Assembly (NCBI RefSeq): GCF_041320665.1
Contig: NZ_CP166730.1
Coordinates: 3,534,001-3,598,000 of the forward strand
DNA length: 64,000 bases
Origin: Comamonas sp. GB3 AK4-5
GTDB taxonomy: Bacteria; Pseudomonadota; Gammaproteobacteria; Burkholderiales; Burkholderiaceae_C
Reading direction: 5' to 3'
A program made the position numbers and the translations under genes. This document shows positions 6,153 through 30,999 of this stretch, piece after piece. How positions within the stretch are numbered: position 1 is the first letter of the stretch; the number at the start of each line of letters is the position of its first letter. The notes under the pieces were generated by a model. It was not told where the DNA came from. It was given only the letters and a program-made list of their open reading frames with translations, and ran no database searches.

Positions 6153-8264
6153 GTGTCCATCCCCCAGTCTTTTCTCCAGGAGCTGCTCGCGCGCGTCGAT
6201 GTCGTCGACGTGGTGGGTCGCTATGTGCCGCTCAAAAAAGGCGGTGCCAACTTCATGGGCCTGTGCCCCTTCCATGGAGAGAAGTCGCCCTCCTTCAGCG
6301 TCAGCCCGTCCAAGCAGTTCTATCACTGCTTTGGCTGCGGCAAGAACGGCAATGCCATCAGCTTTTTGATGGAGCATGCCGGCATGGGCTTTGTCGAGGC
6401 CGTGCAAGACCTAGCCCAGCAAGTGGGCCTGCAGGTGCCGCAAGACGATGTGAGCCCGGCCGAGCGCGAGCGCCAGGCCGCGCAAAAGCGCCAGCAGGCC
6501 TCGCTCACCGATGTGCTGGAGCGCGCAGGCGACTCCTACCGCAAGCAGCTCAAGGACGGCGCCCACGCGGTGGACTACCTGAAAAAGCGCGGCGTTTCCG
6601 GCGCCATCTGCAGCCGCTACGGCCTGGGCTATGCGCCTGCGGGCTGGCGCCATCTGGCCGGTGTGTTCCCGGCCTATGACGATCCGCAGCTGCAGGAGGC
6701 CGGCCTGGTCATCGTCAACGAGGACGATGACAAGCGCTACGACCGCTTTCGCGATCGCATCATGTTCCCCATTCGCAACGTCAAGGGCGAATGCATAGGC
6801 TTTGGCGGCCGTGTGATGGGGGACGAAAAACCCAAATACCTGAACTCGCCCGAGACCCCGCTGTTCCACAAGGGCCGCGAGCTCTACGGCCTGTTCGAAG
6901 CCCGCAACGCCCTGCGCGAAAAAGGCTATGCCCTGGTCACCGAAGGCTATATGGACGTGGTGGCCCTGGCGCAGCTGGGCTTTCCCAACGCCGTGGCCAC
7001 GCTGGGTACGGCCTGCACGCCCGACCATGTGCACAAGCTGTTTCGCTTCACCGATGCCGTGGTCTTCAGCTTTGACGGCGACGCTGCCGGCCGCCGCGCC
7101 GCGCGCAAGGCCCTGGAAGCGGCCCTGCCCTATGCCAGCGACACGCGCAGCGTGAAGTTTCTGTTTCTGCCGGCCGAACACGACCCCGACAGCTTTATCC
7201 GCGAGCATGGCAGCGACGCCTTTGCCCGCCATGTGGGCGACGCCCTGCCGCTGTCGCGCTTTTTGCTCGACGCCATCAGCGAAGGCTGCGACCTGGGCCA
7301 GGCCGAGGGCCGCGCCCGCATGGCCAGCCAGGCGCGGCCGCTGTGGAATCTGCTGCCCGAGGGCGCGCTCAAGCTGCAGCTGCTGGCCGAGATCGCCGGC
7401 AAGGCCCAGCTCTCCAGCAGCAATCTGTCCGAGCTGTGGGAGCAGACCGCCGCCCAGGAAGCCCGCTGGCAGCGCGGGGGTACCGCCGCCCACCCCCAGG
7501 CCGCCCCCAGCGCAGCCCCGCCCCCCGGCGAATGGGCGCCGCCCGATGCCGACTGGGGAGGCCCTGCAAACTATGGCGGTCACAGCGCCCATGAGGGCTG
7601 GGGCGATGCAGGCGGCCAGGCCTACCACCCGGCCGCCGACGGTGGCGGCTATGGCGCGGCAGGTGGCTATGGACGCGACCCGCGCGGCAGCGGCCGTGGC
7701 AACTGGCGCGATGGCCAGGCAGGCGCTGGCAATGGGGCTTATGGCGGGCGCGGCCGCAAGCCCTGGAGCAAGGACCGCAAGGACGGCAATGGCTGGAACG
7801 ATGCCCCCCGCCTGCCACGCATTCCCCAGCCCTTGGGACCGGACCAGGCCGCCCGCCTGCTGCTGGCGCATATGGAATTCATGGAGGAGCTGGCCAACGA
7901 AGACCTGGACGCCCTGGTCAGCCAGCCCGCGCCCCATGGCCCGCTGTTTGCCTGGGTGGAAAGCCAATACCAGGAGCATGGCGCCCAGTCCTGGGCCGTG
8001 CTGCAAGGGCGGCTGGGCGACAGCGCCGAAGCCAAACTGGCCCGCACGCTCATGGAGGGGCCCCACGGGCAGCCCGAGGGCGAGCTGCCCGAGCTGCGCT
8101 GCGAGCTGCGCAGCGTCATCAACCCCATGCTGGCCAAACGCCTGATGGAGCTGGAAAAGCAGGCCCTCTCCGAAGTGGCCACTGACCCTCTGGCCGTGCA
8201 GCGTTACCGCGCGCTGCAGGAGCGGCGCAAGCAACTTTCCGCACAGCCGCAGCCAGCGCCCTGA
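6153..8264 (+). CDS. dnaG: DNA primase DnaG
   Basis: The primase makes the RNA primers for replication forks. The zinc-binding domain has C38, H41, C59 and C62 in CPFH and CFGC. The TOPRIM core has E264 in TEGYMD and D308/D310 in FDGDAAG, which bind catalytic metal. A C-terminal helical domain (about 554-703, starting RLPRIPQPLGPDQAARLLL) should bind the DnaB helicase. At 703 residues it is about 120 longer than the E. coli protein. The extra length is a Gly/Pro/Ala/His-rich low-complexity linker at about 442-553. The start is the GTG at 6153, which places the zinc domain at the expected position. The usual upstream partner rpsU is absent, and rpoD lies 11.8 kb downstream. Confidence 0.97.
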   Translation: MSIPQSFLQELLARVDVVDVVGRYVPLKKGGANFMGLCPFHGEKSPSFSVSPSKQFYHCFGCGKNGNAISFLMEHAGMGFVEAVQDLAQQVGLQVPQDDVSPAERERQAAQKRQQASLTDVLERAGDSYRKQLKDGAHAVDYLKKRGVSGAICSRYGLGYAPAGWRHLAGVFPAYDDPQLQEAGLVIVNEDDDKRYDRFRDRIMFPIRNVKGECIGFGGRVMGDEKPKYLNSPETPLFHKGRELYGLFEARNALREKGYALVTEGYMDVVALAQLGFPNAVATLGTACTPDHVHKLFRFTDAVVFSFDGDAAGRRAARKALEAALPYASDTRSVKFLFLPAEHDPDSFIREHGSDAFARHVGDALPLSRFLLDAISEGCDLGQAEGRARMASQARPLWNLLPEGALKLQLLAEIAGKAQLSSSNLSELWEQTAAQEARWQRGGTAAHPQAAPSAAPPPGEWAPPDADWGGPANYGGHSAHEGWGDAGGQAYHPAADGGGYGAAGGYGRDPRGSGRGNWRDGQAGAGNGAYGGRGRKPWSKDRKDGNGWNDAPRLPRIPQPLGPDQAARLLLAHMEFMEELANEDLDALVSQPAPHGPLFAWVESQYQEHGAQSWAVLQGRLGDSAEAKLARTLMEGPHGQPEGELPELRCELRSVINPMLAKRLMELEKQALSEVATDPLAVQRYRALQERRKQLSAQPQPAP

Positions 8265-8348
8265 GCGCCCTGGCGCGGCACCTGCCCCGCAAATTCTGGG
8301 CCATCCCGGCGGAACGCCACTCCCAGGCCTATACCATTCACAGGTTCA

Positions 8349-8381
8349 CAAAGTCTTCAGCCCAAGCTGGCAAAGACTTTG
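8349..8381. promoter_or_regulatory. Inverted repeat before the WGR gene
   Basis: A perfect 9 bp inverted repeat, CAAAGTCTT and AAGACTTTG with a 15 bp spacer, lies 27 bp before the WGR gene start. No T-run follows, so it is more likely an operator or a leader hairpin than a terminator of dnaG. Confidence 0.4.
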
Positions 8382-8407
8382 TTGGTGATCTCTGAAAGGA
8401 AATAGGC

Positions 8408-11400
8408 ATGCGCCGTTTTGAACTGGTCGAAGGAACGGCCAGCAAGTTCTGGGAAATCGAGCAAAACGACAGCGAACTCAGCATCGCCTGGGGTCGCATA
8501 GGCACTGCGGGTCAAAGCCAGACCAAGTCTTTTGCCGATGCGGCCAAGGCCCTGGCGGCGCTCAACAAGCTGGTCAAGGAAAAAACCGCCAAGGGCTATG
8601 CCGAGACCGGCGCCACCGCGGTGGTGGGTGCAACGCCAGCAGCCACCTCGGCCACCGCACCCAAGCCGGCTGCGGCCAAGACCGTCAAAACCGCCAAGCC
8701 TGCAGCCCCGCCAGCCAGCGCGGTGCCTGCCGCACCCGCAGCCCCCGCCGAGAGCCTGGACGCGCAATGCGAGCGCGTGTTCGAGGCCGTGCGCGCCCAG
8801 ATCGAGGACGGCACGCTCAAGCTGGGCCATGATCTGTCGGCCGCCCAACTCAAGCGCCTGCATGGCGTGAGCGATCGGGGTGCCACCATGGCCTTCGAGC
8901 AGCTCAAGTCCACAGGCATGCTTTACGGCTGGGGCAGCACGGCCAAGGTGCAGGACAAGGCCCAGAGCATTGCCAAAGAACTGGGCGAGGAAAGAGCCGA
9001 GCAGATCGCAGAGATGGCCGAGCAATCCCAGCCAGCGCTGGTGGTCGCAGCGACCGACACCAGCACGCCGCCCTGGGCCCAGGGCGAGCTGCTGCGCCTG
9101 CCGGCCAGCCTGCGCAATCTGGCCTATGCCACGCGTCGTCACCCGCAAAAGCCCAAACCCGCGCCCAGTGCGGCCGCGGCCTGGCATCTGGTGCGCCCCA
9201 TGGCCAAGGACAACGGCCGTGTCGACCTGGCCGGCTGCGATCCCGTGCTGCGCCCCGCGCTGGAACGCATGCTCTCGCGCCTGACCCAGTCCGAGCCCGT
9301 GGCCGACACCGAGGCCGACAGCGCACTGCTGGCCCGCGCCATGGGCACGCGCCGCTACCACGGCGATGTCGAAATCGGCGCCAGCACGATCAACTACCTC
9401 GTGGCCCAGTACGGCCTGCCCGGCGCCATGGACATTTACCTCGCGTCCCAGCAGCTCCAGGTCAGCAGCAGCTACGACAGCAAGGCCAAGGGCCATGTCA
9501 GCACGCTGCACAGCACGGTCACCGGCCCGGTCTCGGACAGCTGGTATGGCCCCCTGGGCGAGACCGAGGAGCAGATGCGCAAGCACCTGTCGGCCGCCCC
9601 CGAAGCCGAGTGGCAGGTCTGCGCCGAGAAGATTGCCGCGGCCCTGCCCACGCTGCACCCCAGCCGCAAAACGGCCGTGGCCCTGCTGGTGCCCGAGTGC
9701 ACCGACATGGCCGATGCCCTGGCCTTCGAGCTCACCGCCGAAAAAGACACACCCGAGAGCGCGCACTGGCTGCTGCTCACGGCCACCGACCCGGCCGCCA
9801 TCGCAGCCCTGGTCAAGGTCAAGCAAAGCTATTCCAGCGGCCTGTGGGACAACCAGCGCATGGTGGCCACCTTGCTGCTGGAGCGCGGCCTGGACGCTCT
9901 TGCCTTGCTGGAGCGCGGCGCGGCCCAGGATGAGGCCGGCGACGCCCTGGCCGCCATGGGCACGCCCGAAGCCGTCACCGCCCTGGCGCGCGTGGCCAGC
10001 GGCTCCAAGGGCGCACTGGCGCGCCTGGCCCTGGCGGTGGACCGCTGGCCGCTGGCGGCCATGGTGGCCCTCGCCAAGCTGATTGCCTCGGGCGGCAAAG
10101 ACGCCGGCTTCCTGACCCCCAGCCTCACACGGCTGCTGCGCGCCCACAGCGGGCAGGTCGATGCGCTACGCCCCTGGCTGGACAGCGCAGCCCAGGCCAC
10201 CATAGACCGCCAGCTGGCCCTGCTGGCCGGCCCCGCCGAGGTGGCCGCCGTGAGCGAGCTGCCCCAGGTGCTGGCCGCCCCGCCCTGGCAGGCCAAGGTA
10301 CAGAAAAAGGCCGCCACCGCCCTGGCCCTGGAGCCTTTGACGCTGGAGCCCACCGAACAATGGGCCGATGGCGCACGCGACAAGGCCTTGGAACTCAACC
10401 AATGGGAGCAAAAGCGCTTTGACAGCGCCAGCAAGAACGTGCTGGAGCTGGTGGACCGACTGGGCTTTGACGACAACAAAAAACAGTTCAAGCACCCCCT
10501 GGAAAACGCCGCGGCCGCCATACGCCAGCGCGACACCGAGGCCTTGATCACGGCCTGGCGCGCCATGGTGGAGCAGCGCAAAAAAGAGCGCTACTACTGG
10601 TTTTACTTCTACGCCGAATACATCAGCCTGCTGCCCGAAGAGATGGCCGCCCCGTTCTGGAATGCCGTGGCAGGTGAGGCCACGGACACGCGCGGCGTGG
10701 ACTTTATGGCTGCCAAGCTGGGCCTGGCCGGTTTGCCCGGCCTGCTGGCCATGGTGCGCAGCAAGCCCAGCGAGAACCTGGAACTGGCGCTGAACTTTGG
10801 CGCCGTGGAGCTGGCGGCCCCTGCGGCCCGGGCCTTTGCCAAGCTCAAGTCGCTGCGCGACGCGGGCCGCCAATGGCTGCTCAAACACCCCGAGCATGCG
10901 GCCTGCGCGCTGCTGGCACCGGCCCTGGGCAAGCCCGGCGAGGCACGCGACTGCGCAGGCTCCGCCCTGCGCCTGCTACAAGCCAACGGCCATGCGGCCT
11001 TGCTGCAAGAGGTGGCGGCGCGCTATGGCCGCGAAGACGTGGTGAACGCATTGCAGGCCGTGCTGGATGAAAACCCGCTGGACCGCTTTCCCACCAAGCG
11101 CAGCAAGCTGCCCGAATGGTGGCAGCCGCGCGGCTGGCGCCGCCCGCAGCTCGCCAACGGCAAGGCCTTGCCCGACGAGGCCTTGGACGCCCTGGGCCAG
11201 ATGCTGGGCTTTCCCACCAACGAAGAGGTCTATGCCGGCATTGCCGATGTGCAGGCCGCCTGCCTGCGCGAATCGCTGGCCGACTTTGGCTGGGACGCCT
11301 TCAGCGCCTGGCTGGAGGCCGGTGCCCCCAGCAAGGAAGGCTGGGCGCTGACGGCCCTGGGCGCTCTGGGCACGGACGAGACCGCGCGCAAGCTCACTCC

Positions 11401-12577
11401 CTTTATCCGCGCCTGGCCCGGCGAATCGGCCCATGCCCGCGCCGTCACCGGCCTGGATGTGCTGGCCGGCATTGGCACCGACGTGGCGCTGATGCTGCTC
11501 AACGGCATTGCGCAGAAGATCAAGTTCAAGGGCCTGCAGGACAAGGCCCGCGAAAAAATCAATGCCATTGCCGAGGCCCGCGGCCTCTCCACCGAGGAGC
11601 TGGAAGACCGCCTCGCCCCCGACCTGGGACTGGACGCCCAGGGCACTTTGAGGCTGGACTTTGGCCCGCGCGCCTTTGTGGTGGGCTTTGACGAAACGCT
11701 GAAGCCCTATGTGCGCGAGCTGGACGCCGATGGCCGCCCCGGCGCACGCCTGCCCGATCTGCCCAAGCCCAAGAAGAGCGATGACGCGGCCCTGTCCAAG
11801 GAGGCAACCGAGCGCTTCAAGCTGCTGAAAAAAGACGTGCGCACCATTGCCAGCCAGCAGCTGCTGCGCCTGGAAGTGGCCATGTGCGCGCGCCGCCGCT
11901 GGACGCCCGCGCTGTTCCGCATGTTCCTGGTCGAGCACCCGCTGGTGCGCCACATCGTGCAGCGCCTGATCTGGGGCGTGTACGAGCTGCCGGGCCAGAC
12001 CAGCTATGGCGGCCAGCTGCAGGCCTGTTTCCGCGTGGCCGAGGATGGCAGCTTCACCACGGCCGAGGACGATGACTTCGAACTGCCCGAGGGCGAGACC
12101 ATCCGCATCGGCGTGCCCCATGCGCTGGAGCTGTCGGCGGCCGATGCCGCCGCCTTTGGCCAGGTGTTTGCCGACTACGAGCTGCTCCAGCCCTTTGCCC
12201 AGATTGGCCGCGACACCTATACGCTGAACGAAGACGAAAGCAAGGCCCTCAAGCTCGAGCGCTGGAAGGGCGCCAAAGTGCCCACGGGCCGTGTGCTGGG
12301 CCTGGTTAACAAGGGCTGGCGCCGTGGCCAGGCCCAAGACGGCGGCGGCATCTGGTATTTCACCAAGCCCCTTGGCAACGGCAAGGTCATCGAGCTGTAT
12401 CTGGACCCGGGCATCATCGTCGGCATGGTCGACGAATACCCCGAGCAGGAGCTGGGCGACGTCCATGTGGGCAAGCCCGCCTCCTGGGGCGAGATCGACA
12501 AGCCCGAGGCTTTCACCATCCTTGATGAGATTTCGGCCAGCGAGCTGGTCCGTGACCTGGAGGCGCTGCGCGCTTGA
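8408..12577 (+). CDS. WGR domain / DUF4132 protein (YehI/MolR-like)
   Basis: This is the first and largest gene of the five-gene system. The 1389-residue product begins with a WGR domain (residues 1-75, with FWEIEQND, the signature AWGRIGTAGQSQTKSF and DAAKALAALNKLVKEK), a module known from PARP-1 that binds nucleic acid ends. An Ala/Pro/Lys linker (about 76-118) follows. The long middle is made of alpha-helical repeats. The C-terminal region (about 1080-1290, with DFGPRAFVVGFDETLKPYVRELD and KKDVRTIASQQLLRLEVAM) matches DUF4132. From family knowledge it corresponds to E. coli YehI, the product of the old molR locus. The function is unknown; the order of domains suggests a large scaffold that senses or binds nucleic acid. 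An AAGGA ribosome-binding site precedes the ATG. Confidence 0.85.
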   Translation: MRRFELVEGTASKFWEIEQNDSELSIAWGRIGTAGQSQTKSFADAAKALAALNKLVKEKTAKGYAETGATAVVGATPAATSATAPKPAAAKTVKTAKPAAPPASAVPAAPAAPAESLDAQCERVFEAVRAQIEDGTLKLGHDLSAAQLKRLHGVSDRGATMAFEQLKSTGMLYGWGSTAKVQDKAQSIAKELGEERAEQIAEMAEQSQPALVVAATDTSTPPWAQGELLRLPASLRNLAYATRRHPQKPKPAPSAAAAWHLVRPMAKDNGRVDLAGCDPVLRPALERMLSRLTQSEPVADTEADSALLARAMGTRRYHGDVEIGASTINYLVAQYGLPGAMDIYLASQQLQVSSSYDSKAKGHVSTLHSTVTGPVSDSWYGPLGETEEQMRKHLSAAPEAEWQVCAEKIAAALPTLHPSRKTAVALLVPECTDMADALAFELTAEKDTPESAHWLLLTATDPAAIAALVKVKQSYSSGLWDNQRMVATLLLERGLDALALLERGAAQDEAGDALAAMGTPEAVTALARVASGSKGALARLALAVDRWPLAAMVALAKLIASGGKDAGFLTPSLTRLLRAHSGQVDALRPWLDSAAQATIDRQLALLAGPAEVAAVSELPQVLAAPPWQAKVQKKAATALALEPLTLEPTEQWADGARDKALELNQWEQKRFDSASKNVLELVDRLGFDDNKKQFKHPLENAAAAIRQRDTEALITAWRAMVEQRKKERYYWFYFYAEYISLLPEEMAAPFWNAVAGEATDTRGVDFMAAKLGLAGLPGLLAMVRSKPSENLELALNFGAVELAAPAARAFAKLKSLRDAGRQWLLKHPEHAACALLAPALGKPGEARDCAGSALRLLQANGHAALLQEVAARYGREDVVNALQAVLDENPLDRFPTKRSKLPEWWQPRGWRRPQLANGKALPDEALDALGQMLGFPTNEEVYAGIADVQAACLRESLADFGWDAFSAWLEAGAPSKEGWALTALGALGTDETARKLTPFIRAWPGESAHARAVTGLDVLAGIGTDVALMLLNGIAQKIKFKGLQDKAREKINAIAEARGLSTEELEDRLAPDLGLDAQGTLRLDFGPRAFVVGFDETLKPYVRELDADGRPGARLPDLPKPKKSDDAALSKEATERFKLLKKDVRTIASQQLLRLEVAMCARRRWTPALFRMFLVEHPLVRHIVQRLIWGVYELPGQTSYGGQLQACFRVAEDGSFTTAEDDDFELPEGETIRIGVPHALELSAADAAAFGQVFADYELLQPFAQIGRDTYTLNEDESKALKLERWKGAKVPTGRVLGLVNKGWRRGQAQDGGGIWYFTKPLGNGKVIELYLDPGIIVGMVDEYPEQELGDVHVGKPASWGEIDKPEAFTILDEISASELVRDLEALRA

Positions 12578-12584
12578 TAAATCC

Positions 12585-12674
12585 CCCCCTGAGTCGCTGC
12601 GCGCCTTCCCCCTCTCTGGCTTCGCCGGAGGGGGACGACACCAGCGCGGCGGGGCGGCCCTTGCGCGGTGTCCT
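12585..12674. repeat. Dispersed GC-rich intergenic repeat, copy A
   Basis: It begins CCCCCTGAGTCGCT and contains a C5TCTCT...GGAGGGGG hairpin, then GACGACA and GGGGCGGCCCTTGC. Copy B lies at 13955-14054 in the same orientation, differing by a few substitutions and a slightly longer hairpin loop. The pair flanks the MoxR gene. Confidence 0.8.
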
Positions 12675-12715
12675 GGCCTTGGGTCGCGCCGGTTTTGTGC
12701 GCTGCGCCCCTCTTT

Positions 12716-12755
12716 ACTCCCTCGCCCCTTTGGGGAGAGGGTGGGGGTGAGGGGC
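12716..12755. repeat. G/C-run hairpin repeat
   Basis: The arms CCCTCGCCCC and GGGGAGAGGG around TTT form a strong hairpin, followed by TGGGGGTGAGGGG. It is of the type often scattered between genes in Gram-negative genomes. It lies between the WGR and MoxR genes and could weaken transcription through the operon. Confidence 0.5.
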
Positions 12756-12824
12756 CTGCTGGCACAGCGCAATACGCTGGTCTCACCCGCCTTCGCTTTG
12801 ACCATCCAACACACAGAAATTTGT

Positions 12825-13952
12825 ATGGCGACTTCACGTAAATCGACATCCAGCGCGGCTGCAGGCCAGCCTGTTTTGCAGCGCCCGCCGGCGGAAATCC
12901 AATACGCCGCGCAGCTGGCTCAGCTCCAGGCCCTGGACGCGGGCCAGCCGCGCCCCCCGGGCTGGCGGCTCAGCCTCAAGGCCGCGCGCAGCTTTATTTT
13001 GGGCGATGCGGCTCTGGGCATTGCGCCAAAAATAGTGGCCCCCGTGGCCGGCATAGAGCGCATGCTGGTGACCCTGGCCACGGGCCGGGGTTTGATGCTG
13101 GTGGGCGAACCGGGCACGGCCAAGTCCATGCTGTCCGAGCTGCTGGCTGCGGCCGTCTGCGGCAGCTCCACGCTGACCATCCAGGGCGGTGCCTCCATTA
13201 CCGAGGACCAGATCAAATACGGCTGGAACTACGCCCTGCTGATCAACGAAGGCCCCAGCCCGCGCGCCCTGGTGCCGGCTCCGCTCTACCAGGGCATGCA
13301 GGCCGGGCAGATCGTGCGCTTTGAAGAAATCACGCGCGCCCCGCTGGAGGTGCAGGACTGCCTGCTGGGCATGCTGTCCGACCGCGTGATGGCCGTGCCC
13401 GAACTGGCCGGCGAGCACGGCATGCTCTATGCCCGCGAAGGTTTCAACATCATTGCCACGGCCAATACGCGCGACCGCGGCGTCAACGAGATGAGCGCGG
13501 CGCTCAAGCGCCGCTTCGACTTCGAGACCGTGTTCCCCATTCTCAACTTCGACAGCGAAATGGCCCTGGTGCAAGAGGCCAGCGCCCGCCTGCTGGTCCA
13601 AAGCGGCATTCCCCAGACCTTGCCCGCGCCCGTGCTGGAGCTGCTGGTCACCACCTTCCGCGATCTGCGCGGTGCCGGTGACAGTGGGAGCGGCGGCGCC
13701 ATGGACAAGCTCAGCGCCGTGATGTCCACGGCCGAGGCCGTGAACGTGGCCCATGCCGTGGGCGTGCGCGCCTGGTTTCTGGAGCAGCGCGAGGGCTCGC
13801 CCCAGGACCTGGTGGACTGCATTGCCGGCACCGTGGTCAAGGACAATGCCGACGACCGCGCCAAGCTGCGCCGCTACTTTGAGCAAAAGGCGGCCAAGCG
13901 CCAGGGCGCGCACTGGAAGGCGTACTACGAGGCAAGACATAGGCTTCCATGA
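12825..13952 (+). CDS. MoxR-type AAA+ ATPase (YehL-like)
   Basis: The 375-residue protein is an AAA+ ATPase of the MoxR branch. It has a Walker A motif GEPGTAKS at 94-101 and a Walker B region VRFEEITRAP at 164-173, in which the acidic pair is EE rather than the commoner DE. Sensor-like INIIATANTRDRGVNEMS and ALKRRFDF segments follow. MoxR ATPases usually work with a VWA-domain partner to remodel or load metals into protein complexes (RavA-ViaA, NorQ-NorD, CbbQ-CbbO). Here the VWA partner is two genes downstream. The ATG at 12825 is chosen because it starts a plausible short N-terminus just after the repeat-filled 247 bp gap. Confidence 0.88.
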   Translation: MATSRKSTSSAAAGQPVLQRPPAEIQYAAQLAQLQALDAGQPRPPGWRLSLKAARSFILGDAALGIAPKIVAPVAGIERMLVTLATGRGLMLVGEPGTAKSMLSELLAAAVCGSSTLTIQGGASITEDQIKYGWNYALLINEGPSPRALVPAPLYQGMQAGQIVRFEEITRAPLEVQDCLLGMLSDRVMAVPELAGEHGMLYAREGFNIIATANTRDRGVNEMSAALKRRFDFETVFPILNFDSEMALVQEASARLLVQSGIPQTLPAPVLELLVTTFRDLRGAGDSGSGGAMDKLSAVMSTAEAVNVAHAVGVRAWFLEQREGSPQDLVDCIAGTVVKDNADDRAKLRRYFEQKAAKRQGAHWKAYYEARHRLP

Positions 13953-13954
13953 AG

Positions 13955-14054
13955 CTCCCCCTGAGTCGCTACGCGCCTTCCCCCTCTCTCTCGCTGCGCG
14001 AGGGAGGGGGACGACAGCCTAAGCATAGGGGCGGCCCTTGCTCGCTGTCCCACG
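13955..14054. repeat. Dispersed GC-rich intergenic repeat, copy B
   Basis: This copy matches 12585-12674: CCCCCTGAGTCGCT, CGCGCCTTCCCCCTCTCT, a hairpin closed by GGAGGGGG, GACGACAGCC, then GGGGCGGCCCTTGC. It starts 3 bp after the MoxR stop codon and ends 49 bp before the DUF5682 start. Confidence 0.8.
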
Positions 14055-14103
14055 CCTGGTACGAGCCAGTTGCATGCGCATCGCCCCGCCCTGGATTGCT
14101 GAG

Positions 14104-16533
14104 ATGAACCTTCCTGAAATCATTGGCGTACGCCACCACAGCCCAGCCTGCGCGCGGCTGGTGGCCCGGCGCATACGCGCGCTGCAACCTGCCTTTGTGC
14201 TCATCGAAGGCCCGGCAGACTTCAACGCGCGCCTGGACGAGCTGGCCCTGCCCCACCAGTTGCCGGTGGCCATTTACAGCTATCTGTCCACGGGTGAAGT
14301 CCACCACGGCTCCTGGTCGCCATTTGCCGAGCATTCGCCCGAATGGCAGGCCCTGGTCGTGGGCCGCGAGACGGGGGCGCAGCTGCGCTTTATCGACCTG
14401 CCGGCCTGGCACAAGGCCTTGGGCCAGCTGGAAAACCGCTATGCCGATGTGGCCGACGCCGAGCACGAGCACCAGGCAGAGGCTTACGAACAGGCGCTGG
14501 AGCAGCAGCTGTCCGTGCAAGGGCGCGATGCGCTGTGGGACCATTTGTTCGAAGATGGCTGCGAGGATGGTGAGCTGGCACAGCGCCTGTCCACCTACTT
14601 CGCCCACCTGCGCCCGGCGCACGAACCCGGCTCCTTGGGCAACCAGCAGCGCGAGCAGATGATGGCCCGCTGGATCGCCTGGGCCATGGCCCAGGGCACC
14701 GGCCCGGTGCTGGTGGTGTGCGGGGGCTACCACGCCCCGGCGCTGGGCCGGCTGTGGACCGAGGTGTCCGCAGAACTCCCGGAGACGCCGCTGCCTGATT
14801 CCACTACGGAATCAGGAGCTATCAGCGCTGATGGGCCCAGCGACGCACCGCGTTTTGGCTCATTTCTCGTGCCCTATACCTTCAAGCGCCTGGATGCATT
14901 TGCCGGCTATGCCGCAGGCATGCCCTCGCCCACCTGGTACCAGTGGCTGTGGGAGCATGGCAGCGAGGGCGCGGCCCGGCGCGCGCTGCAGGCCGTGCTG
15001 GGCCGCATGCGTGACAAAAAACTGCCCGCCTCCACCGCCGACCTGATGGCCGTGCACGGTAAGGCCCTGGGGCTGGCACGGCTGCGCGGCCATGTGCAGC
15101 CGCTGCGCAGCGACTGGCTGGATGCCATGGCCGGCGCCCTGGTCAAGAACGCGCTGGATGCCCCCCTGCCCTGGTCTTACCGCGGCCCGCTGCGCCCGGG
15201 CACCGACCCCGTGCTGGTGCTGGCCATGGATGTGCTGGCCGGCGACAGCGCGGGCCGACTGGCCCCTGGCACGCCCCAGCCGCCGCTGGTGGCCGCCGTG
15301 GCCGCCGAGCTGGAGGCGCTGGGCATCAGCTTGCGCGGCACGCTCAAGCTCGATCTCTTGTCCCAGACCGACCGTGCCAAAAGCCGCTTGCTGCACCGGC
15401 TGCAGATTCTGGAGCTACCCGGCATCCGCCGCACGCAGGGCCCGGAGCTGGCCCTGTCGGCCGAGCGCGGCGAGCAATGGGAGTTGCGGGCCCCGCTGGA
15501 ACAGCAGGCCGCGCTGATTGAGGCCGGCGCCTGGGGTGCCACGCTGCAGGACGCCGCCCGCGCCAAGCTGGAGGACCAGCTGCACCGCGCCCAGGGCCGC
15601 ATAGAGCCGCTGGCCCAGGGCCTGAACCGCGCAGCCTGGGCCGGTCTTTCTGCATTGAGCGACCGCTTGCTGCGTGAGCTGCAGACCGCCGTGGCCAACG
15701 AGGGCCGCTTTGAGGCTCTGGCCCCGGCCCTGGGCCTGCTGCATGTGCTGCTGCGCCACGGCCAGACGCTGGGCATGGCTGGCGCACCCGTGCTGCGCGT
15801 GGTGGTGCAAGCCGGCTTTGACCGCGCGCTGTGGTTGCTGGAGCCCGCCACCGTCATCCCTCCCGCCGAGATGGAAGCCCATTTGCAGGGCTACAAGGCA
15901 CTGAAACAGATCGTCAGCGACAGGCTGGCCGCACAGCCCGGTGACGGCCAGGCCCTGGATATTGAGCCGCTGCGCGCCCTGGGCCTGTGGCAACGCAAGG
16001 CTGCCGACCCCGCTGCCGCGCCCTTAAGCCGTGGCGCCGCCCTGGGTGCGGCCTTCAGCCTTTCGGGCCGGGTGGCCGAGACCCGGGCCATGACCCAAGC
16101 CATTGCCCAGGCCGCGCCCCAGGACGTCAGCCTGGAACAGGCCATGGGCCTGCTGCGGCAGCTGCCCCCGGCCACGCTGGGCGACGCCCTGGCCGGCCTG
16201 CTGGCCCTGGCGCGTGAGGCCCTGGCCAGCGAGCCCGGCTTTGCCGCCGGCCTGGACGCCCTGGTGCGCACATTGGACGGCATGGACTTTGCGCTGGCCC
16301 TGCCCGCGCTGCGCTCGGCCTTTGCCTGGCTGCCGCCGCGTGAGCGCGCCGCCCTGGCCGAGCAGGTCTTGCAGTTGCATCAGGCCACGCATTTGTCCCA
16401 GCGTGTGCTGACAGGCCCCTTGCAGACCGCGCTCACCCCCAAAGAAACCGCGCAGGCCACGGCCTGGGAAGCCCGGGCCGCACAGCGACTGGCGATGTGG
16501 GGCATAGACACAGGAATCGAACATGGCCTTTGA
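14104..16533 (+). CDS. DUF5682 family protein (YehM-like)
   Basis: The third gene of the system encodes 809 residues. The conserved N-terminus EIIGVRHHSPACARLVARRIRALQPAFVLIEGPADFN is typical of DUF5682, with a His-His pair and a later CGGYHAPAL. Their arrangement suggests an enzyme-like N-terminal alpha/beta domain, but no reaction is known. The rest is Ala/Leu-rich and helical. At about residues 231-243 the gene contains a short palindromic insertion that keeps the frame (see the repeat at 14795-14832). Its 3' end overlaps the VWA gene by 11 bp, so the two are translationally coupled. An upstream in-frame ATG at 14074 is possible but leaves a less conserved N-terminus. Confidence 0.82.
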   Translation: MNLPEIIGVRHHSPACARLVARRIRALQPAFVLIEGPADFNARLDELALPHQLPVAIYSYLSTGEVHHGSWSPFAEHSPEWQALVVGRETGAQLRFIDLPAWHKALGQLENRYADVADAEHEHQAEAYEQALEQQLSVQGRDALWDHLFEDGCEDGELAQRLSTYFAHLRPAHEPGSLGNQQREQMMARWIAWAMAQGTGPVLVVCGGYHAPALGRLWTEVSAELPETPLPDSTTESGAISADGPSDAPRFGSFLVPYTFKRLDAFAGYAAGMPSPTWYQWLWEHGSEGAARRALQAVLGRMRDKKLPASTADLMAVHGKALGLARLRGHVQPLRSDWLDAMAGALVKNALDAPLPWSYRGPLRPGTDPVLVLAMDVLAGDSAGRLAPGTPQPPLVAAVAAELEALGISLRGTLKLDLLSQTDRAKSRLLHRLQILELPGIRRTQGPELALSAERGEQWELRAPLEQQAALIEAGAWGATLQDAARAKLEDQLHRAQGRIEPLAQGLNRAAWAGLSALSDRLLRELQTAVANEGRFEALAPALGLLHVLLRHGQTLGMAGAPVLRVVVQAGFDRALWLLEPATVIPPAEMEAHLQGYKALKQIVSDRLAAQPGDGQALDIEPLRALGLWQRKAADPAAAPLSRGAALGAAFSLSGRVAETRAMTQAIAQAAPQDVSLEQAMGLLRQLPPATLGDALAGLLALAREALASEPGFAAGLDALVRTLDGMDFALALPALRSAFAWLPPRERAALAEQVLQLHQATHLSQRVLTGPLQTALTPKETAQATAWEARAAQRLAMWGIDTGIEHGL
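14795..14832. repeat. In-frame palindromic mini-element inside the DUF5682 gene
   Basis: A perfect 8 bp stem CTGATTCC/GGAATCAG with a 5 bp loop (14795-14815) is followed by the 12 bp palindrome ATCAGCGCTGAT (14821-14832). The second part recurs at 25102-25112 on the other side of rpoD as ATCAGCGCTGA with similar flanks (AGCT-TCAGCGCTGAT-GG read on the opposite strand). It is read in frame as a Ser/Thr/Gly-rich loop. Confidence 0.55.
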
Positions 16534-17647
16534 CATTACCGAGCCCCTGCAGCGCTGGCGCTTGCTGCTGGGTGAATCCGCCGAAGCGGCCTGCGGCAGC
16601 CTGGGCGAGCAGGCCCAGGCCGCGGATGCGGCCCTGGACTGGCTCTACGGCCGCGACCCGGACCGCGCCCAGCGCGGTGAACGTGCGGCAGGTCTGGGGC
16701 CTTCGGCCCTGTCCACGCCTGACTGGATCAACACCATCCACCAGCTGTTCCCCAAAGAGGTCATAGAGCGGCTGGAGCGCGACGCCGTGGAGCGCTTCGG
16801 CATTGACGAGGTGGTGACCAATCTGGAAGTGCTGGAGCGTATAGAACCCTCCGAATCCCTGCTGCGCGCCGTGCTGCACACCAAGCATTTGATGAACCCC
16901 GAGGTACTGGCCGCAGCACGCAAGCTGGTGGCCGAGGTAGTGCGCCGCATCATGGAGAAAATGGCCACCGAGGTGCGCCAGGCCTTTGGCGGCACGCGCG
17001 ACAGGCGCCGGCGATCGCGCATCAAGATTGCGCGCAACTTTGACTTCAAGCACACGATTGCGGCCAATCTGCACCGCTGGGACCCCAAAAGCCAGCGTCT
17101 GTACCTGCAGACCCCGCTGTTCAACAGCCGCACGCGCCGCCATATCGAGCCCTGGGACATCATCTTGCTGATCGACCAGAGCGGCTCCATGGTGGACTCG
17201 GTGATCCACAGCGCCGTGATGGCGGCCTGCCTGTGGCAGCTGCCCGGCATGCGCACCCGCCTGGTGGCCTTTGACACCGAGGTGGTGGACCTCACCGCCG
17301 ATGTAGCCGACCCCGTGGAGCTGCTGATGAAGGTGCAGCTGGGCGGCGGCACCTATATCGCCAAGGCCGTGGGCTATGCCCAGTCGCTGATCAGCAACCC
17401 GGCCAAAAGCATGGTGGTGCTGGTCAGCGACTTTTACGAAGGCGGCAGCGACAGCGAGCTGGTGCGCCGCGTGCGTGCGCTGACCGAAGCCGGCACCAAG
17501 GTGCTGGGCCTGGCCGCACTGGATTCCGAAGCCCAGCCCGCCTACGACCGGGAAATGGCCGCGCGCCTGGTGAGCGTGGGCGCCCAGGTGGGCGCCATGA
17601 CGCCGGGACAGTTGGCCGGCTGGCTGGCCGAAAAGGTGCAGGCATGA
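16523..17647 (+). CDS. VWA domain protein (YehP-like)
   Basis: The 374-residue protein has an N-terminal helical region (about 1-165) and a C-terminal von Willebrand A domain. The metal-ion-dependent adhesion site reads DQSGS at 218-222, within WDIILLIDQSGSM. The later MIDAS positions appear as GGGTYI near 274 and LVSDFYEGG near 300. VWA proteins of this type are the usual partners of MoxR ATPases. The gene starts 11 bp inside the DUF5682 gene and ends in an ATGA overlap with the SWIM gene, so the three are clearly one transcription and translation unit. Confidence 0.9.
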   Translation: MAFDITEPLQRWRLLLGESAEAACGSLGEQAQAADAALDWLYGRDPDRAQRGERAAGLGPSALSTPDWINTIHQLFPKEVIERLERDAVERFGIDEVVTNLEVLERIEPSESLLRAVLHTKHLMNPEVLAAARKLVAEVVRRIMEKMATEVRQAFGGTRDRRRRSRIKIARNFDFKHTIAANLHRWDPKSQRLYLQTPLFNSRTRRHIEPWDIILLIDQSGSMVDSVIHSAVMAACLWQLPGMRTRLVAFDTEVVDLTADVADPVELLMKVQLGGGTYIAKAVGYAQSLISNPAKSMVVLVSDFYEGGSDSELVRRVRALTEAGTKVLGLAALDSEAQPAYDREMAARLVSVGAQVGAMTPGQLAGWLAEKVQA

Positions 17648-19767
17648 GTCGCCCCGATCTGCTGGAGCTCACACCACAGGCCTTGACGGCCCTGGCCAAT
17701 GCCGGTTTTGTGAAGCGCGCGCAAAAAGACGTGGCCGCCGGCCTGCTGCCGCGCATAGAGGCCGCAGACGACGGCGAAGTGGCGGCGCATTTTGACGATG
17801 GCGTCAGCACCCGCTTGCCCCCAGGCCGCACGCTGCGCGACGCCAGCTGCACCTGCCCGGCCAGCGGCATGTGCCGGCACCGGGTGATGCTGGTGCTGGC
17901 CTACCAGGCACAGGCGCAAGCTCCAGAGCAAGACAGCGCGCCGGCTTCGGGTTCTGCCACCCAGGCTCAGGAGCCGCTACAGGCCGAGGTCTGGACGCCG
18001 GCCGAGTTTGACGACGCCGCCTTGACCCAGGTGTTCTCGCCCTCGGTCCAGGCCCAGGCCGGCGAGCTGGCGGCCCAGCGCCCGGTGATTGCCCTGCTGC
18101 CCGGCGTGGGTGAGCAGCAGCCGCCCAGCGCGCGCCTGCCCATGTGCAGCGTGCGGTTTTTCTCGCGCAGCTCCCTGGCCCATGCACGCTGCGACTGCAA
18201 GCAAGGCAGCGGCTGCGCCCACGTGCTGATGGCCGTATGGGCCTACCAGCAGACCGGCCCCATGACCGCCGATGCGCCCGAGCGCATGGTGGAACTGGGC
18301 CCGCGCCTAGGCAGCGCCACCGCCCCGGCACCCCAGGCCCGCAAGCTGCTGGACAGCGAAGCCGCACGCAGTGCACAGCAGGCGCTGGACCAGTTGCTTG
18401 CCGCCCTGTGGCTGGATGGTGCCAGCCAACCCTTGCTGGCTCTGGCCGCACGCTTTGAAGCCTTGCGCACCCAGGTCCAAGCCCTGGGCTGGGCCTGGGT
18501 GGACGATGGGCTTCATGAACTCTGGCAGCTGCTGCAGGCCCACCAGGCGCGCAGCAGCCGCTTTGATGCCCACCGCCTGCTGGCCGTGGCGACCGAACTC
18601 TGGGCCAGGCTGCGCGCCGCCGCCCATGCAGAGGGTTGCCAGCCTGATGCTGCACCGCCCCTGCTCGCCAGCCAGATTCTGGGCCTGGGTGTGAAGGGCG
18701 AGCTGGCGCTGGACCATCTGCGCCTGGTTTCCCTGGGCGCGGCGCTGTGGCGCAGCGAGACCGCCGAAGGCGCCAGCCTGCTGTTTGCCGACCCCGATAC
18801 CCAGACCGTCACCGTGCTGGAGCGCGAATGGCCGCTGGCCGATGACAACAACACAGGCCCTGCGGCCACGGCCCTGCTCCACCGCCGCGTGGCCGGCTTT
18901 CCGCTGCGCCAGCTGGCCAGCGGCCAGGTCATCACCAAGACCGCCGTACGCCGCGCCAACGGGCTGATCGACATTGGCGCTAGCACACGCCAGACCGGCG
19001 TCATGCCGCTGTCGCCCCGCTCCTGGGACGACCTGGCTGCACCGCTCAAGCACCACAGCCTCGCCACGCTGCGCCAGGCCCTGGAATCGGCCCTGCCCGA
19101 CTTTGCCACCCCACGCCAGGCCGCCACTGGCGCGGCCGCTGGCACCGGCGGTGCCCTGCATGTGCTGGCCAGCGAGCAGCTGCGGCTGCTGGAGCAGGCC
19201 TGGGATGCAGGCGCCCAGGTCTTGCATGCAAAGCTGGCAACAGGGGAGGAAGCCGGAGCAGATGCAGAGGAGCGCCATGTGCTGCACCTGGCCCTGCCCC
19301 ACCACGCCGCCGCACCCGCAGCCGTCGACACCCTGGCCCGGGCCTTGGCCGGCGAATGGGGGCCGCTGCGCGCCGTGGCCGGCAGCGTGCAGCTGCAGGC
19401 GGGTCAGTTAGTGATGCAGCCCCTGGCCTTGCTCACGGTCGAACGCGGCCTGGCCCTGCAGGCCGAACCCGGTGCCGGCCCGCAGCAACTGCCCCTGGCC
19501 CAGGGCAGTCCGGAGCGCGGTGCGCTGCAAGCGCTGACCGCATCCAGCCTGGACATGCTGGCCGTCTGGCTACGCCAAGGGCTGCGCCACCAATCCGCCT
19601 CTGGCCTGGTACGGGGCGGTGAGCAGGCCAGGCAGCTGAGCCAGGCCGGGCTGCCGCGCTGCGCGGCCTTGATGCAAGAAGCCCTGAACAAGCTCAGGGA
19701 CAGCGAGCACCCGACCCTGCTGGCCAGCCTGGGCGCTTTGACGCTCTTACTGCAGGATCAAAAATAA
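17644..19767 (+). CDS. Double SWIM zinc-finger protein (YehQ-like)
   Basis: The 707-residue protein closes the system. Two SWIM zinc fingers (CxC...CxH) are visible: C69-T-C71...C77-R-H79 and C183-D-C185...C191-A-H193. SWIM fingers bind DNA or proteins and occur in transposases, helicases and plant regulators. The remaining 500 residues are Ala/Leu-rich with no motif I recognise. The start ATG overlaps the VWA stop codon (ATGA). The gene ends only 15 bp before the TTGACA element that probably starts rpoD transcription. Confidence 0.87.
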   Translation: MSRPDLLELTPQALTALANAGFVKRAQKDVAAGLLPRIEAADDGEVAAHFDDGVSTRLPPGRTLRDASCTCPASGMCRHRVMLVLAYQAQAQAPEQDSAPASGSATQAQEPLQAEVWTPAEFDDAALTQVFSPSVQAQAGELAAQRPVIALLPGVGEQQPPSARLPMCSVRFFSRSSLAHARCDCKQGSGCAHVLMAVWAYQQTGPMTADAPERMVELGPRLGSATAPAPQARKLLDSEAARSAQQALDQLLAALWLDGASQPLLALAARFEALRTQVQALGWAWVDDGLHELWQLLQAHQARSSRFDAHRLLAVATELWARLRAAAHAEGCQPDAAPPLLASQILGLGVKGELALDHLRLVSLGAALWRSETAEGASLLFADPDTQTVTVLEREWPLADDNNTGPAATALLHRRVAGFPLRQLASGQVITKTAVRRANGLIDIGASTRQTGVMPLSPRSWDDLAAPLKHHSLATLRQALESALPDFATPRQAATGAAAGTGGALHVLASEQLRLLEQAWDAGAQVLHAKLATGEEAGADAEERHVLHLALPHHAAAPAAVDTLARALAGEWGPLRAVAGSVQLQAGQLVMQPLALLTVERGLALQAEPGAGPQQLPLAQGSPERGALQALTASSLDMLAVWLRQGLRHQSASGLVRGGEQARQLSQAGLPRCAALMQEALNKLRDSEHPTLLASLGALTLLLQDQK

Positions 19768-19781
19768 ATGTGCGAGAGCTC

Positions 19782-19806
19782 TTGACATCTTGCAAATCGT
19801 TATAAT
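19782..19806 (+). promoter_or_regulatory. Probable rpoD promoter
   Basis: TTGACA at 19782-19787 and TATAAT at 19801-19806 are both perfect consensus hexamers but only 13 bp apart. Using the overlapping TAATAT at 19803-19808 gives 15 bp. It lies in an A/T-rich island right after the SWIM gene and would give rpoD a leader of about 270 nt. That leader (19815-20082) has no open frame or riboswitch that I recognise. Confidence 0.5.
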
Positions 19807-20082
19807 ATGAATCTTATCGGCAAGAGCGACAGCAACACCTCCGGACCCGGCCCCCGTGACAGACCTCACGTGGATTGCAGCAAGTGCATGGCCAATTTCA
19901 CCGCAAGGACTGCACACCAAATGTTCGCCCACCCATCTTGCCACCGGGAGCCCGTCCGCTCCCCACATGCTGCGGCCTAGGCCTTGGCATGTGTTGAATG
20001 CGCCGGGTATCGAGGCGCTTGCTTTCCATCTTTGTGTTTGTGTATCAGCTCGTTGTCTCCGCTTTTACCGTGAGGTGTGTGC

Positions 20083-22545
20083 ATGCCCGTATCAAAGTCC
20101 GCGAAGTCCCAGCAGGCCCTCGAAACTTCCGCGAAGTCCAAGACCTCTTCGGCGGCTGCCAAGAAAACAGCAGCCGTGAAAAAGCCCGCCTCCACCAAGG
20201 CGGCTGAAGCCAAGAAAGACCCCAACGTGGCAACCAAATCTCAAGCTGAACTCAAAGCCCTGGCCGACGAACTGCTCGCGGCCGATGCCAAGAAGCGTGG
20301 CCGCAAGAAAGCCGATGCGGTAGAAGGCGACACCGCCGACGCTGAAGCGCCTGCCGTCAAAAAGCCTGCGGCCAAGAAGGCTGCCGCCAAAAAGGCCCCA
20401 GCCAAGACTGCAGCCGCCACCAGCGATGACAAGGCTCCGGCCAAGCGCGGCCGCAAGCCCAAGGCCGAAACCACTGCCAAGGGCAAGGGTAAGGCTGGCA
20501 TGTCCGATGACATGGATGATGTCGACATGGACGGCGAGATGGACGGCGAGGTCGACGCCGACCTCGAAGTCGAGACCGAAGTGGAAGCAGAAGTGGAGAG
20601 CACGCCCACGACCACGGAAAAGGTCAAGCCGCTGCGCATGAAGATCAGCAAGGCCAAGGAGCGCGCCTTGATGAAGGAATTCGGCCTGGACGAAACCGTC
20701 CTGACCGAAGAGGAAATGAACACCCGCCGTCAGCGCCTGAAGGCACTGATCACGCTGGGCAAAACACGCGGCTACCTGACCCACAGCGAAATCAACGACC
20801 ACTTGCCCGACAAGCTGATCGATGCCGAAACGCTGGAAGTCGTGATCTCCATGCTCAACGACATGGGCGTGGCCGTGTACGAGCAAACGCCCGACGCGGA
20901 AACCCTGTTCCAGAACAACGTGACGCCCACGGCCACCACGGTGGAAGAGGCCGAGGAAGAAGCCGAAGCCGCCCTGTCCACCGTGGACTCGGAATTCGGC
21001 CGTACCACCGACCCCGTGCGCATGTACATGCGTGAAATGGGTACGGTGGAGCTGCTGACGCGCGAAGGCGAAATCGAAATCGCCAAGCGCATCGAAGGCG
21101 GCTTGATGGACATGATGGAGGCCATCTCGGCCTCCCCCGCCACCATCGCCGAGATCCTGGGCATGGCCGAGGAAATCCGCGAAGGCAAGGTAGTCATCTC
21201 CACCATCGTCGACGGCTTTGTGAACGCCAACGAAAACGATGACTACGTGGCCGAAGAAGACTTCGACGAATACGACGAAGAGGACGACGACGACGGCAAG
21301 GGCGGCTCCAAGGCGCTGACCAAGAAGCTCGAAGAGCTGAAGAACGAAGCCCTGTCGCGCTTTGACAGCATGCGCGGTCACTTCGAGAAGATGCACAAGG
21401 TCTACGACAAGGAAGGCTACGGCTCGGCCACCTACCTGAAGCTCCAGAAGACCATCACCGAGGAGCTGATGACCATCCGCTTCACGGCCAAGACCATCGA
21501 GAAGCTGTGCGATCTGGTGCGCGCCCAGGTGGATGATGTGCGCAAGAAGGAACGCGAGCTGCGCAAGATCATCGTGGACAAGTGCCGCATGCCGCAGGAA
21601 ACCTTTATCAAGGATTTCCCGGCCAACCTGCTGAACCTGGACTGGGTGGTCAAGCAAGCCGCTGCCGGCAAGCCCTGGAGCACGGTGCTGGAACGCAATA
21701 TCCCGCCCGTGCAGGAACTGCAGCAAAACCTGATGGACCTGCAGTCCCGCGTGGTGGTGCCGCTGGACGAGCTCAAGCGCATCAACAAGCGCATGAACGA
21801 CGGCGAGCGCGCCAGCCGCGATGCCAAGAAGGAGATGATCGAGGCCAACTTGCGCCTGGTGATCTCGATTGCCAAGAAATACACCAACCGTGGCCTGCAG
21901 TTCCTGGACCTGATCCAGGAAGGCAACATCGGCTTGATGAAGGCCGTGGACAAGTTCGAGTACCGCCGCGGCTACAAGTTCTCGACCTATGCCACCTGGT
22001 GGATTCGCCAGGCCATCACCCGCTCCATCGCGGACCAGGCGCGCACCATCCGTATTCCGGTGCACATGATCGAGACCATCAACAAGATGAACCGCATCTC
22101 GCGCCAGCACTTGCAGGAATTTGGCTTCGAGCCCGATGCCTCCATCCTGGCCGCCAAGATGGAAATCCCCGAGGACAAGATCCGCAAGATCATGAAGATC
22201 GCCAAGGAGCCCATCTCGATGGAAACCCCCATCGGCGATGATGACGACTCCCACCTGGGCGACTTCATCGAGGACCACAACAACACCGCGCCGGTGGATG
22301 CAGCCATGCAAGCCGGCCTGCGCGATGTGGTCAAGGACATCCTCGACGGCCTGACCCCGCGCGAAGCCAAGGTGCTGCGCATGCGCTTCGGTATTGAAAT
22401 GTCCACCGACCACACGCTGGAAGAAGTGGGCAAGCAGTTCGACGTGACGCGCGAGCGCATCCGCCAGATCGAAGCCAAGGCGCTGCGCAAGCTCAAGCAC
22501 CCCAGCCGCTCCGACAAGCTGCGCAGCTTTATCGATTCGCTGTAA
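20083..22545 (+). CDS. rpoD: Primary sigma factor RpoD (sigma-70) with long basic N-terminal extension
   Basis: The housekeeping sigma factor directs RNA polymerase to most promoters. Region 1.2 ([16 protein letters not shown]), region 2 ([27 protein letters not shown] and [26 protein letters not shown]), region 3 and the region 4.2 helix-turn-helix ([24 protein letters not shown]) are all intact. At 820 residues it is about 200 longer than E. coli RpoD. Most of the difference is a Lys/Ala/Pro-rich, histone H1-like N-terminus (about 1-145, with repeated [16 protein letters not shown] stretches and an AT-hook-like KRGRKPK), then a very acidic segment. A GTGAGG ribosome-binding site at 20070-20075 supports the ATG at 20083 over one two codons earlier. 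Confidence 0.98.
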
Positions 22546-28217: not shown

Positions 28218-28692
28218 GCCTGCGGCCCACCTCGGGCCACAGCCAAAAGGGGCCGCATGCAGCGCATTGCCGCCGTGGCCCCTTTCGCGTCTCCTCCCCA
28301 GCGCACGCAGATACCGCCGTGCGTTCTGTGCATGCCTTGCCATGCACAGACCATGGGCCAGCTGTACGCCGCATCTTGCTGCCCCTTTATCCAGCAGCAG
28401 CGACCTTCCTACAAGCCAACAGGAAATCGCCGCATGGCGCGGCTGCGCCATGTGCCATCCACCGCCCCTACCTCCCAGCACGACGGCAGGTACTTTCTAC
28501 ATCTCCCCGCCTCCTTTAGCTTGGAGTCTGCGCTGCGCAAAGCCCTGAATCACCTTGGCTGAAGCTGGCTGCAGTCCCTATCGCAACGGCCAAGCGGGGA
28601 TGAAGCCACTACCCGCCAGGCCATGGCTTTCGGTCTTTGCGCCAGCACAGCCCCCCGACTGTCTGTCTGTTTACAAGAGGCAAGCCCCTTCG
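28218..28692. other. 475 bp gap between amiC and pgaA with a strong hairpin
   Basis: A perfect 10 bp stem TCTGTGCATG/CATGCACAGA with a CCTTGC loop lies at 28325-28350, and a GGGGCC-based inverted repeat at about 28240-28285. Neither has a T-run, but either could end the amiC message. The pga promoter must lie here; no clear consensus was seen. No gene is visible. Confidence 0.45.
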
Positions 28693-30987: not shown

Positions 30988-30999
30988 TCCGATGCCCCT

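Follow-up and report, generated by a model that had tools for sequence, protein, structure and literature searches.

What is the role of a five-gene set that lies between two essential genes, dnaG and rpoD, in the bacterium Comamonas sp. GB3 AK4-5? The genes, here called I, L, M, P, and Q, are found in a stretch of 64,000 nucleotides (the window; contig NZ_CP166730.1, positions 3,534,001 to 3,598,000) of a genome assembled as a single contig of 5.05 Mb. All coordinates below are window positions on the plus strand unless another source or strand is named. A first-pass annotation, made from the letters alone, had described a WGR/DUF4132 protein, a MoxR AAA+ ATPase, a DUF5682 protein, a VWA protein with an intact metal ion-dependent adhesion site (MIDAS), and a protein with two SWIM fingers. 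The five genes are a conserved operon of the yeh type, and the window holds a new member of it in which the WGR domain and a probable winged helix-turn-helix (wHTH) are fused to DUF4132. The anatomy of the operon is well supported. As to function, we tentatively favor a model, which may well prove wrong, in which the MoxR-VWA pair remodels or metal-loads a TraB-like protein, M, in response to nucleic-acid stress. The yeh gene set itself is already known in Escherichia coli; what is new is the assignment of structures in M, Q, and I, and a single five-role blueprint that runs across the subtypes of the system.

The resemblance to E. coli yehI, yehL, yehM, yehP, and yehQ claimed at the outset is borne out. 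All five genes have K-12 orthologues, co-directional and in the order I-L-M-P-Q. By blastp, I is 33% identical to YehI over 1140 columns, L is 73% identical to YehL, M 46% to YehM, P 69% to YehP, and Q 36% to YehQ, and the N-terminus of gene I matches K-12 YehF. The E. coli layout, yehI-yehK-yehL-yehM-yehP-yehQ with yehF upstream, differs from that of the window in several respects. K-12 has a separate WGR gene, yehF, plus the yehH pseudogene, whereas in the window the WGR and probable wHTH domains are part of the DUF4132 protein; the window also lacks a LexA box and carries two repeat elements between genes. The yehK product is matched by no Pfam model, and blastp found no counterpart of it in those window proteins that were compared. 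In two further Escherichia loci, those of Escherichia sp. E1V33 and E. whittamii (L244 and L245), two tandem WGR-DUF4132-like regions stand upstream of yehL, the first of them behind a LexA box, and K-12 yehF is closest to the N-terminus of the second.

The operon is not confined to these genera. A scan of 84,980 species genomes with a VWA alignment was made, and the best 80 of 246 confirmed matches were kept; gene content was counted in the 66 of these 80 loci that are at least 21 kb long and thus have full flanks, the other 14 being cut by contig ends and left uncounted. All five genes are present in 61 of the 66, and one condition named beforehand as refuting the observation, a failure of the genes to co-occur in other genomes, was thus not borne out. 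The remaining five lack I, and one of these also lacks Q. The prevailing gene order is ILMPQ (52 loci), followed by LMPQI (five, including Burkholderia), LMIPQ (four, the rhizobial loci), LMPQ (four), and LMP (one). By their record titles the loci come from Escherichia, Klebsiella, Burkholderia, Variovorax, Streptomyces, Actinomadura, Archangium, Agrobacterium, Trichlorobacter, and a Thermoanaerobaculia bin; we take these to span several phyla. Coverage of at least 80% of a yehL-M-P query is reached in 5165 of 5426 complete E. coli genomes (about 95%); the median number of places in a genome is one, and 5297 of the 5299 places lie on chromosomes. In one E. coli strain (NZ_CP091677.1, near position 2801525) only the last 9% of a yehL-P query is matched, and VWA, WGR, and yehQ genes are annotated under the match, so the operon there has possibly been replaced. 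A relative of M is found in 34 of 72,556 plasmid records, some of which reach chromosome size, and among 50,697 phage records, which were searched for P only, there is one relative of P (33.5% identity).

Each of the domains named in the first-pass annotation (WGR, DUF4132, AAA_5, DUF5682, VWA, and SWIM) scores above the Pfam curated cut-off in a hidden Markov model search, so that the other refuting condition, missing domains, did not hold either. The central pair is formed by L and P. Gene L (12825..13952; 375 aa; AAA_5, 6e-34) has the Walker A sequence GEPGTAKS at residues 94–101 (13104..13127). Among 69 orthologues, Walker A is found in 68, as is the ATAN of sensor 1. A loose Walker B pattern was matched in none of the 69; an RFEE[IM]-type motif, found in 68 of them, is likely to be the Walker B. 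These motifs and the closeness to YehL indicate that L is a MoxR-type AAA+ ATPase nearest the YehL subfamily. Gene P (16523..17647; 374 aa) has a VWA_CoxE domain (5.5e-61) over residues 147–367, and its orthologues are 367 to 440 aa long. Its MIDAS is intact, with DQSGSM from residue 218, GGGT from 274, and LVSDF from 300, and the elements DxSxS...T...D are kept in 78 of 78 orthologues. The proposed pairing of a MoxR protein with a VWA partner is supported. In NorQ/NorD, CbbQ/CbbO, and RavA/ViaA a MoxR-type ATPase likewise goes with a MIDAS-bearing VWA partner whose gene is adjacent or nearly so. According to PMC3893208 and PMC11432383, YehL is a recognized MoxR subfamily, and by the former it is a subfamily of its own, which sets it apart from the three named pairs. 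Unlike them, too, the system studied here has constant extra partners, namely the DUF5682, DUF4132/DUF5691, and SWIM proteins. For NorQ-NorD, PMC9976466 and PMC13036017 describe a VWA finger that enters the ATPase ring, a MIDAS thought to bind the target, and an ATP-driven twisting proposed to allow metal insertion.

If L and P form such a machine, M is its probable client. Gene M (14104..16533; 809 aa) gives DUF5682 matches of 8.1e-103 to 9e-103. In its predicted model (predicted local distance difference test, pLDDT, 88.8), residues 1–222 (14104..14769) form a domain whose best structural match is annotated "TraB family protein", and this domain is followed by a HEAT-like solenoid, about 400 residues long. 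TraB/Tiki superfamily members are defined by two GX2H motifs plus a Glu residue. Both motifs are found in M, as GVRH (residues 8–11; 14125..14136) and GGYH (residues 207–210; 14722..14733), together with E35, and the motifs align with those of PrgY. H, E, D, and R residues of this N-terminal region are invariant across the 69 distinct sequences compared, which come from every subtype. Both H11 and E35 are present in all 69, G8 is found in 62 with Pro in the other seven, and H210 occurs in all 64 sequences that have a letter at that position, the other five being gapped. In a 47-row alignment G8, H11, E35, G207, and H210 are each present in every row. We therefore propose, on the strength of the predicted model, that the N-terminal domain of M has a TraB/Tiki-superfamily fold, an assignment that is new. 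With TraB, PrgY, GumN, and the wider Tiki superfamily this domain would share the fold, the GX2H motifs, the Glu, and R-x-x-x-M; M differs from them in its fusion to the HEAT-like solenoid and in its tie to a MoxR-VWA pair.

Profiles were compared as well. With hhalign, M against TraB/Tiki profiles reaches E values of 0.0016 to 6.7e-4, at a probability of 16–27%, and the match weakens with shallower profiles (E 0.06 in one comparison). Pfam ChaN is matched weakly, at best E 0.039, in two of 47 M orthologues; ChaN by itself could be aligned with M only across the last motif pair, at E 0.003; its score was 27.4, and none of 30 shuffles scored above 20.3. A search of the PDB with one TraB profile (A6) missed the TraB chain, which a single PrgY sequence found at E 0.056. 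When M was compared with the PDB by Foldseek, helical-repeat matches dominated and none had E at or below 0.001, and when the PDB was searched by sequence, the profiles of M and Q returned chance matches only.

Genes I and Q contribute domains of the nucleic-acid type. Gene I (8408..12577; 1389 aa) has the YehI architecture with an extra N-terminal WGR, and consists of WGR, a probable GntR-like wHTH, a helical region, and DUF4132. The WGR domain (residues 5–68; 8420..8611) matches PF05406 at 4.8e-18, and its family profile finds 2ra8 (1e-13) and the WGR of PARP3 (0.025) in the PDB; DUF4132 (residues 1112–1304; 11741..12319) is matched at 2e-48. Between them, residues 122–172 (8771..8923) match PF00392 at E 0.0059, below the curated cut-off. 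The same family appears at E of 1 or less in 12 of 22 orthologues of I, with a best value of 3.8e-05, and GntR-type PDB matches are weak (E 0.046–0.83). To judge from these sequence matches, a GntR-like wHTH, a new assignment for the WGR protein, is probable. Gene Q (17644..19767; 707 aa; SWIM, 3.5e-07, in two stretches) has the two SWIM fingers that had been read from its translation, with C-x-C...C-x-H at residues 69 and 183: CTCPASGMCRH (residues 69–79; 17848..17880) and CDCKQGSGCAH (residues 183–193; 18190..18222). The predicted model of Q (pLDDT 91.4) would add two OB-like folds in tandem at residues 352–601 (18697..19446), a further new assignment resting on fold matches.

The distribution of the system within Comamonas shows that the window type is one of three. 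A DUF5682 gene is found in 33 of 53 genomes of the genus. The window type is present in three (G000, G008, and G035). A second type, subtype B, is found in four (G001, G032, G051, and G052) and has two or three DUF4132 regions, MoxR, DUF5682, and VWA. In each of three gene-called subtype B loci, blastp clustering links one gene to Q; against the Pfam SWIM model one of these genes passes (20.7 bits against a cut-off of 19.6), one falls below (15.8 bits), and the third is not matched. The remaining 26 genomes, as well as the four with subtype B, have a DUF5682 match like that of a third type, subtype C (650–884 bits vs. 341–392). Six subtype C loci were read; they contain a SWIM-type gene, a DUF5691 (HEAT-like) gene, MoxR, DUF5682, and VWA, and in the two loci scanned with Pfam, SWIM was detected in one and DUF5691 in both. 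Subtype C thus brings together SWIM, helical-repeat, MoxR, DUF5682, and VWA proteins in one cluster, as the window does, with DUF5691 in place of WGR-DUF4132 and in another gene order; its MoxR, DUF5682, and VWA proteins are about 25–43% identical, by segment, to those of the window. One subtype C cluster (L021:5321-9559) has HSP90-like and TPR genes between MoxR and DUF5682. From the content of subtypes B and C, therefore, there follows a five-role blueprint consisting of a SWIM or SWIM-like protein, a helical-repeat protein (DUF4132 or DUF5691/HEAT), MoxR, DUF5682, and VWA. The window type is rare: a Q-type SWIM gene was found in 11 of 399 sampled genomes of the family and two of 369 of the class, and in the phylum 12 of 299 sampled genomes have a DUF5682 gene, whatever its type.

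A possible link to DNA damage comes from the enterobacteria. The first WGR gene of K-12, Escherichia sp. E1V33, E. whittamii, and Intestinirhabdus alba is preceded by a LexA-type box, the end of which is 8 or 9 bases upstream of the gene; in K-12 it lies ahead of yehF (L012:1450-1465). Such a box is found in four of the five enterobacterial loci with upstream DNA, Thorsellia being the one without it, and Klebsiella and one further Escherichia locus standing outside this count. We take the gene molR to correspond to yehF/yehH. Among E. coli SOS/LexA-regulated genes, molR is listed in PMC11039860 and PMC3978071. In Deinococcus, the DUF4132 gene DRA0166 and the WGR gene DR2173 are reported to be strongly upregulated on DdrO depletion (PMC8533742). 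The box is absent at the first gene of the window. LexA-like patterns, with one mismatch, occur in five of 64 upstream regions scanned, one of them convincing, and the 16 upstream regions taken from Comamonadaceae and their relatives yielded no conserved regulatory motif. A sigma-70 scan of 8000–20300 gave no site ahead of gene I; its sole site, at 19738–19765, compares with 0.7 expected by chance. Together, the probable wHTH in I, the OB-like folds in Q, and the enterobacterial LexA boxes strengthen the nucleic-acid-linked character that had been suggested for the system.

The model that we prefer joins these elements as follows. The MoxR AAA+ ring of L and the MIDAS-bearing VWA adaptor P would form one ATP-driven remodeling machine. 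Its main client is probably M, which combines the TraB/Tiki-like domain, with its conserved polar site, and the HEAT-like solenoid, and which would be an enzyme. The I protein, with WGR, the probable wHTH, and DUF4132, and the Q protein, with SWIM fingers and OB-like folds, would act as sensors; they probably recognize nucleic acid that is damaged or unusual and determine when or where M is opened, metal-loaded, or switched by L and P, with DNA damage as the presumed signal. We lean toward this model because of the co-occurrence of the genes, the blueprint of the subtypes, the OB, WGR, and wHTH domains, the LexA boxes, and the precedent of NorQD, as described in the papers cited above. One could go further and see in the operon a stress-response machine of new design, SOS-induced in Escherichia: the WGR/wHTH and SWIM/OB proteins would sense DNA damage or stray nucleic acid and set off a MoxR-VWA motor, which would load metal into a cytosolic metallohydrolase of the Tiki/TraB type and activate it. 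In this complete form the proposal is rather unlikely to hold.

Two other functions deserve weighing. The system might be a chaperone for metal-cofactor maturation that has nothing to do with nucleic acid; L and P would put metal into M or into a host metalloenzyme, and I and Q would be structural scaffolds whose zinc fingers and WGR domain make protein contacts. Such a role would suit the CoxE-type VWA of P and the strict retention of its MIDAS, and MoxR-VWA pairs of known function, NorQD and further examples among them, do mature metalloenzymes. Yet within the five-gene set M alone is a conserved candidate client (no census of neighbors was made that might rule out one elsewhere), and the enterobacterial LexA boxes, the probable wHTH, and the OB-like folds all point to nucleic acid, so that we consider this explanation possible but doubtful. 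The first-pass annotation had raised the idea of a stress or conflict system. In an anti-phage or other conflict system, I and Q would sense invading nucleic acid and L-P would release M as a toxic effector. The patchy occurrence in most groups and the existence of some plasmid copies could be read in that way, and the MoxR-vWA ternary conflict systems (eLife 2020, PMC7159879) likewise consist of MoxR, VWA, and a third protein. In E. coli, however, the L-M-P core is near-universal, mostly as one chromosomal copy, the phage records, searched for P only, hold a single relative of that protein, and the sole match in PADLOC-DB 2.0.0 has E 0.042 and 10.4 bits. The model for bpMoxR, of the beta-propeller ternary subtype, reaches 14.3 bits against a cut-off of 27. 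Published MoxR-vWA conflict systems have variable C-terminal effectors on the VWA protein, according to that paper, and P has no such domain. No Pfam name for VMAP or iSTAND was found on any of the five proteins in a general Pfam scan, which used no dedicated profile, and the main text of PMC7159879 has none of the terms SWIM, WGR, DUF4132, YehL, EreA, and MolR. A conflict system is therefore not supported, and we regard it as improbable.

There remains the position itself, which, it had been suggested, could tie expression of the system to core functions. The genes do lie between dnaG (6153–8264) and rpoD (20077–22545), and they do so in three genomes of the genus; in xanthomonads, moreover, the system was independently placed directly ahead of a sigma gene, with a sigma-70-type match within about 450 bases after Q in six loci (L051, L065, L070, L074, L076, and L077) and with all four genes tested identified as RpoH by NCBIfam, above the cut-off. 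From this one might suppose that the system regulates, or is regulated with, dnaG and rpoD through its location. Against this, rpoD was matched in 53 of 53 genomes of the genus, 30 of the 54 matches were made into loci and examined, and in 27 of these dnaG is directly upstream of rpoD, the three occupied genomes being the exceptions. The rpoD gene has kept its own conserved leader 3′ of the insertion (19817..20076), which from 19817 onward aligns with 84% identity to a relative with an empty site (L107). In G035, 5.3 kb that includes a TraB/GumN gene parts the system from rpoD, and in 72 of the 80 loci of the wider scan no rpoD-like match is found in the fetched flanks. Since dnaG adjoins no locus among the 80 save two of this genus, the insertion is local; it appears to be a lineage-specific event in three genomes of the genus and looks accidental, and a regulatory role for the site is very hard to credit. 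Adjacency to sigma genes (rpoD and rpoH) as a regulatory logic was likewise set aside, as it concerns two lineages only and was noticed post hoc. In the one xanthomonad locus with an annotated upstream flank, the operon comes after ftsX, a response regulator gene, and a UDG-family gene. The TraB/GumN-family gene of G035 (G035:C19:95403-96158, equal to L018:18104-18859) stands between Q and rpoD, beside a system that has its own TraB-like domain.

Some details of the window concern the gene calls and the intergenic segments. The GTG at 12291, given as the MoxR start in a mechanical list of open reading frames, is wrong, because its first 92 codons are out of frame in the two closest relatives; the likely start is the ATG at 12825. 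The DUF5682 gene starts at the ATG at 14104, where residue 1 of E. coli YehM aligns. The listed frames of both genes are longer than the genes owing to mechanical extension. The last three genes overlap as reported, M and P by 11 bp (16523–16533) and P and Q by 4 bp (17644–17647). L and M overlap in two close relatives; in the window they are parted by a copy of a dispersed repeat (13958..13985), the core of which is also found between I and L (12586..12613), where the close relatives have a variant of it. With up to three mismatches allowed, the repeat is matched 166 times in the genome (86 forward, 80 reverse). Farther downstream, 28555–33033 encodes a protein with a PgaA barrel and a GHL13-containing polysaccharide deacetylase, so that a poly-N-acetylglucosamine cluster is probable there, and a DDE transposase gene lies on the minus strand at 62323–63768.

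Our search of the open literature returned no mention of DUF5682 and, among the papers listed, no functional study of the operon, though subscription papers lay outside the search and this is not proof of absence; just two papers there mention at least two of yehL, yehM, yehP, and yehQ. The operon is nonetheless real, conserved, and under-studied, with its L-M-P core in about 95% of complete E. coli genomes and the five-gene set in several phyla. The predicted fold and polar site of YehM, the nucleic-acid-binding architecture predicted for YehQ, and the LexA-type box offer a concrete and falsifiable mechanism for a long-obscure E. coli operon.

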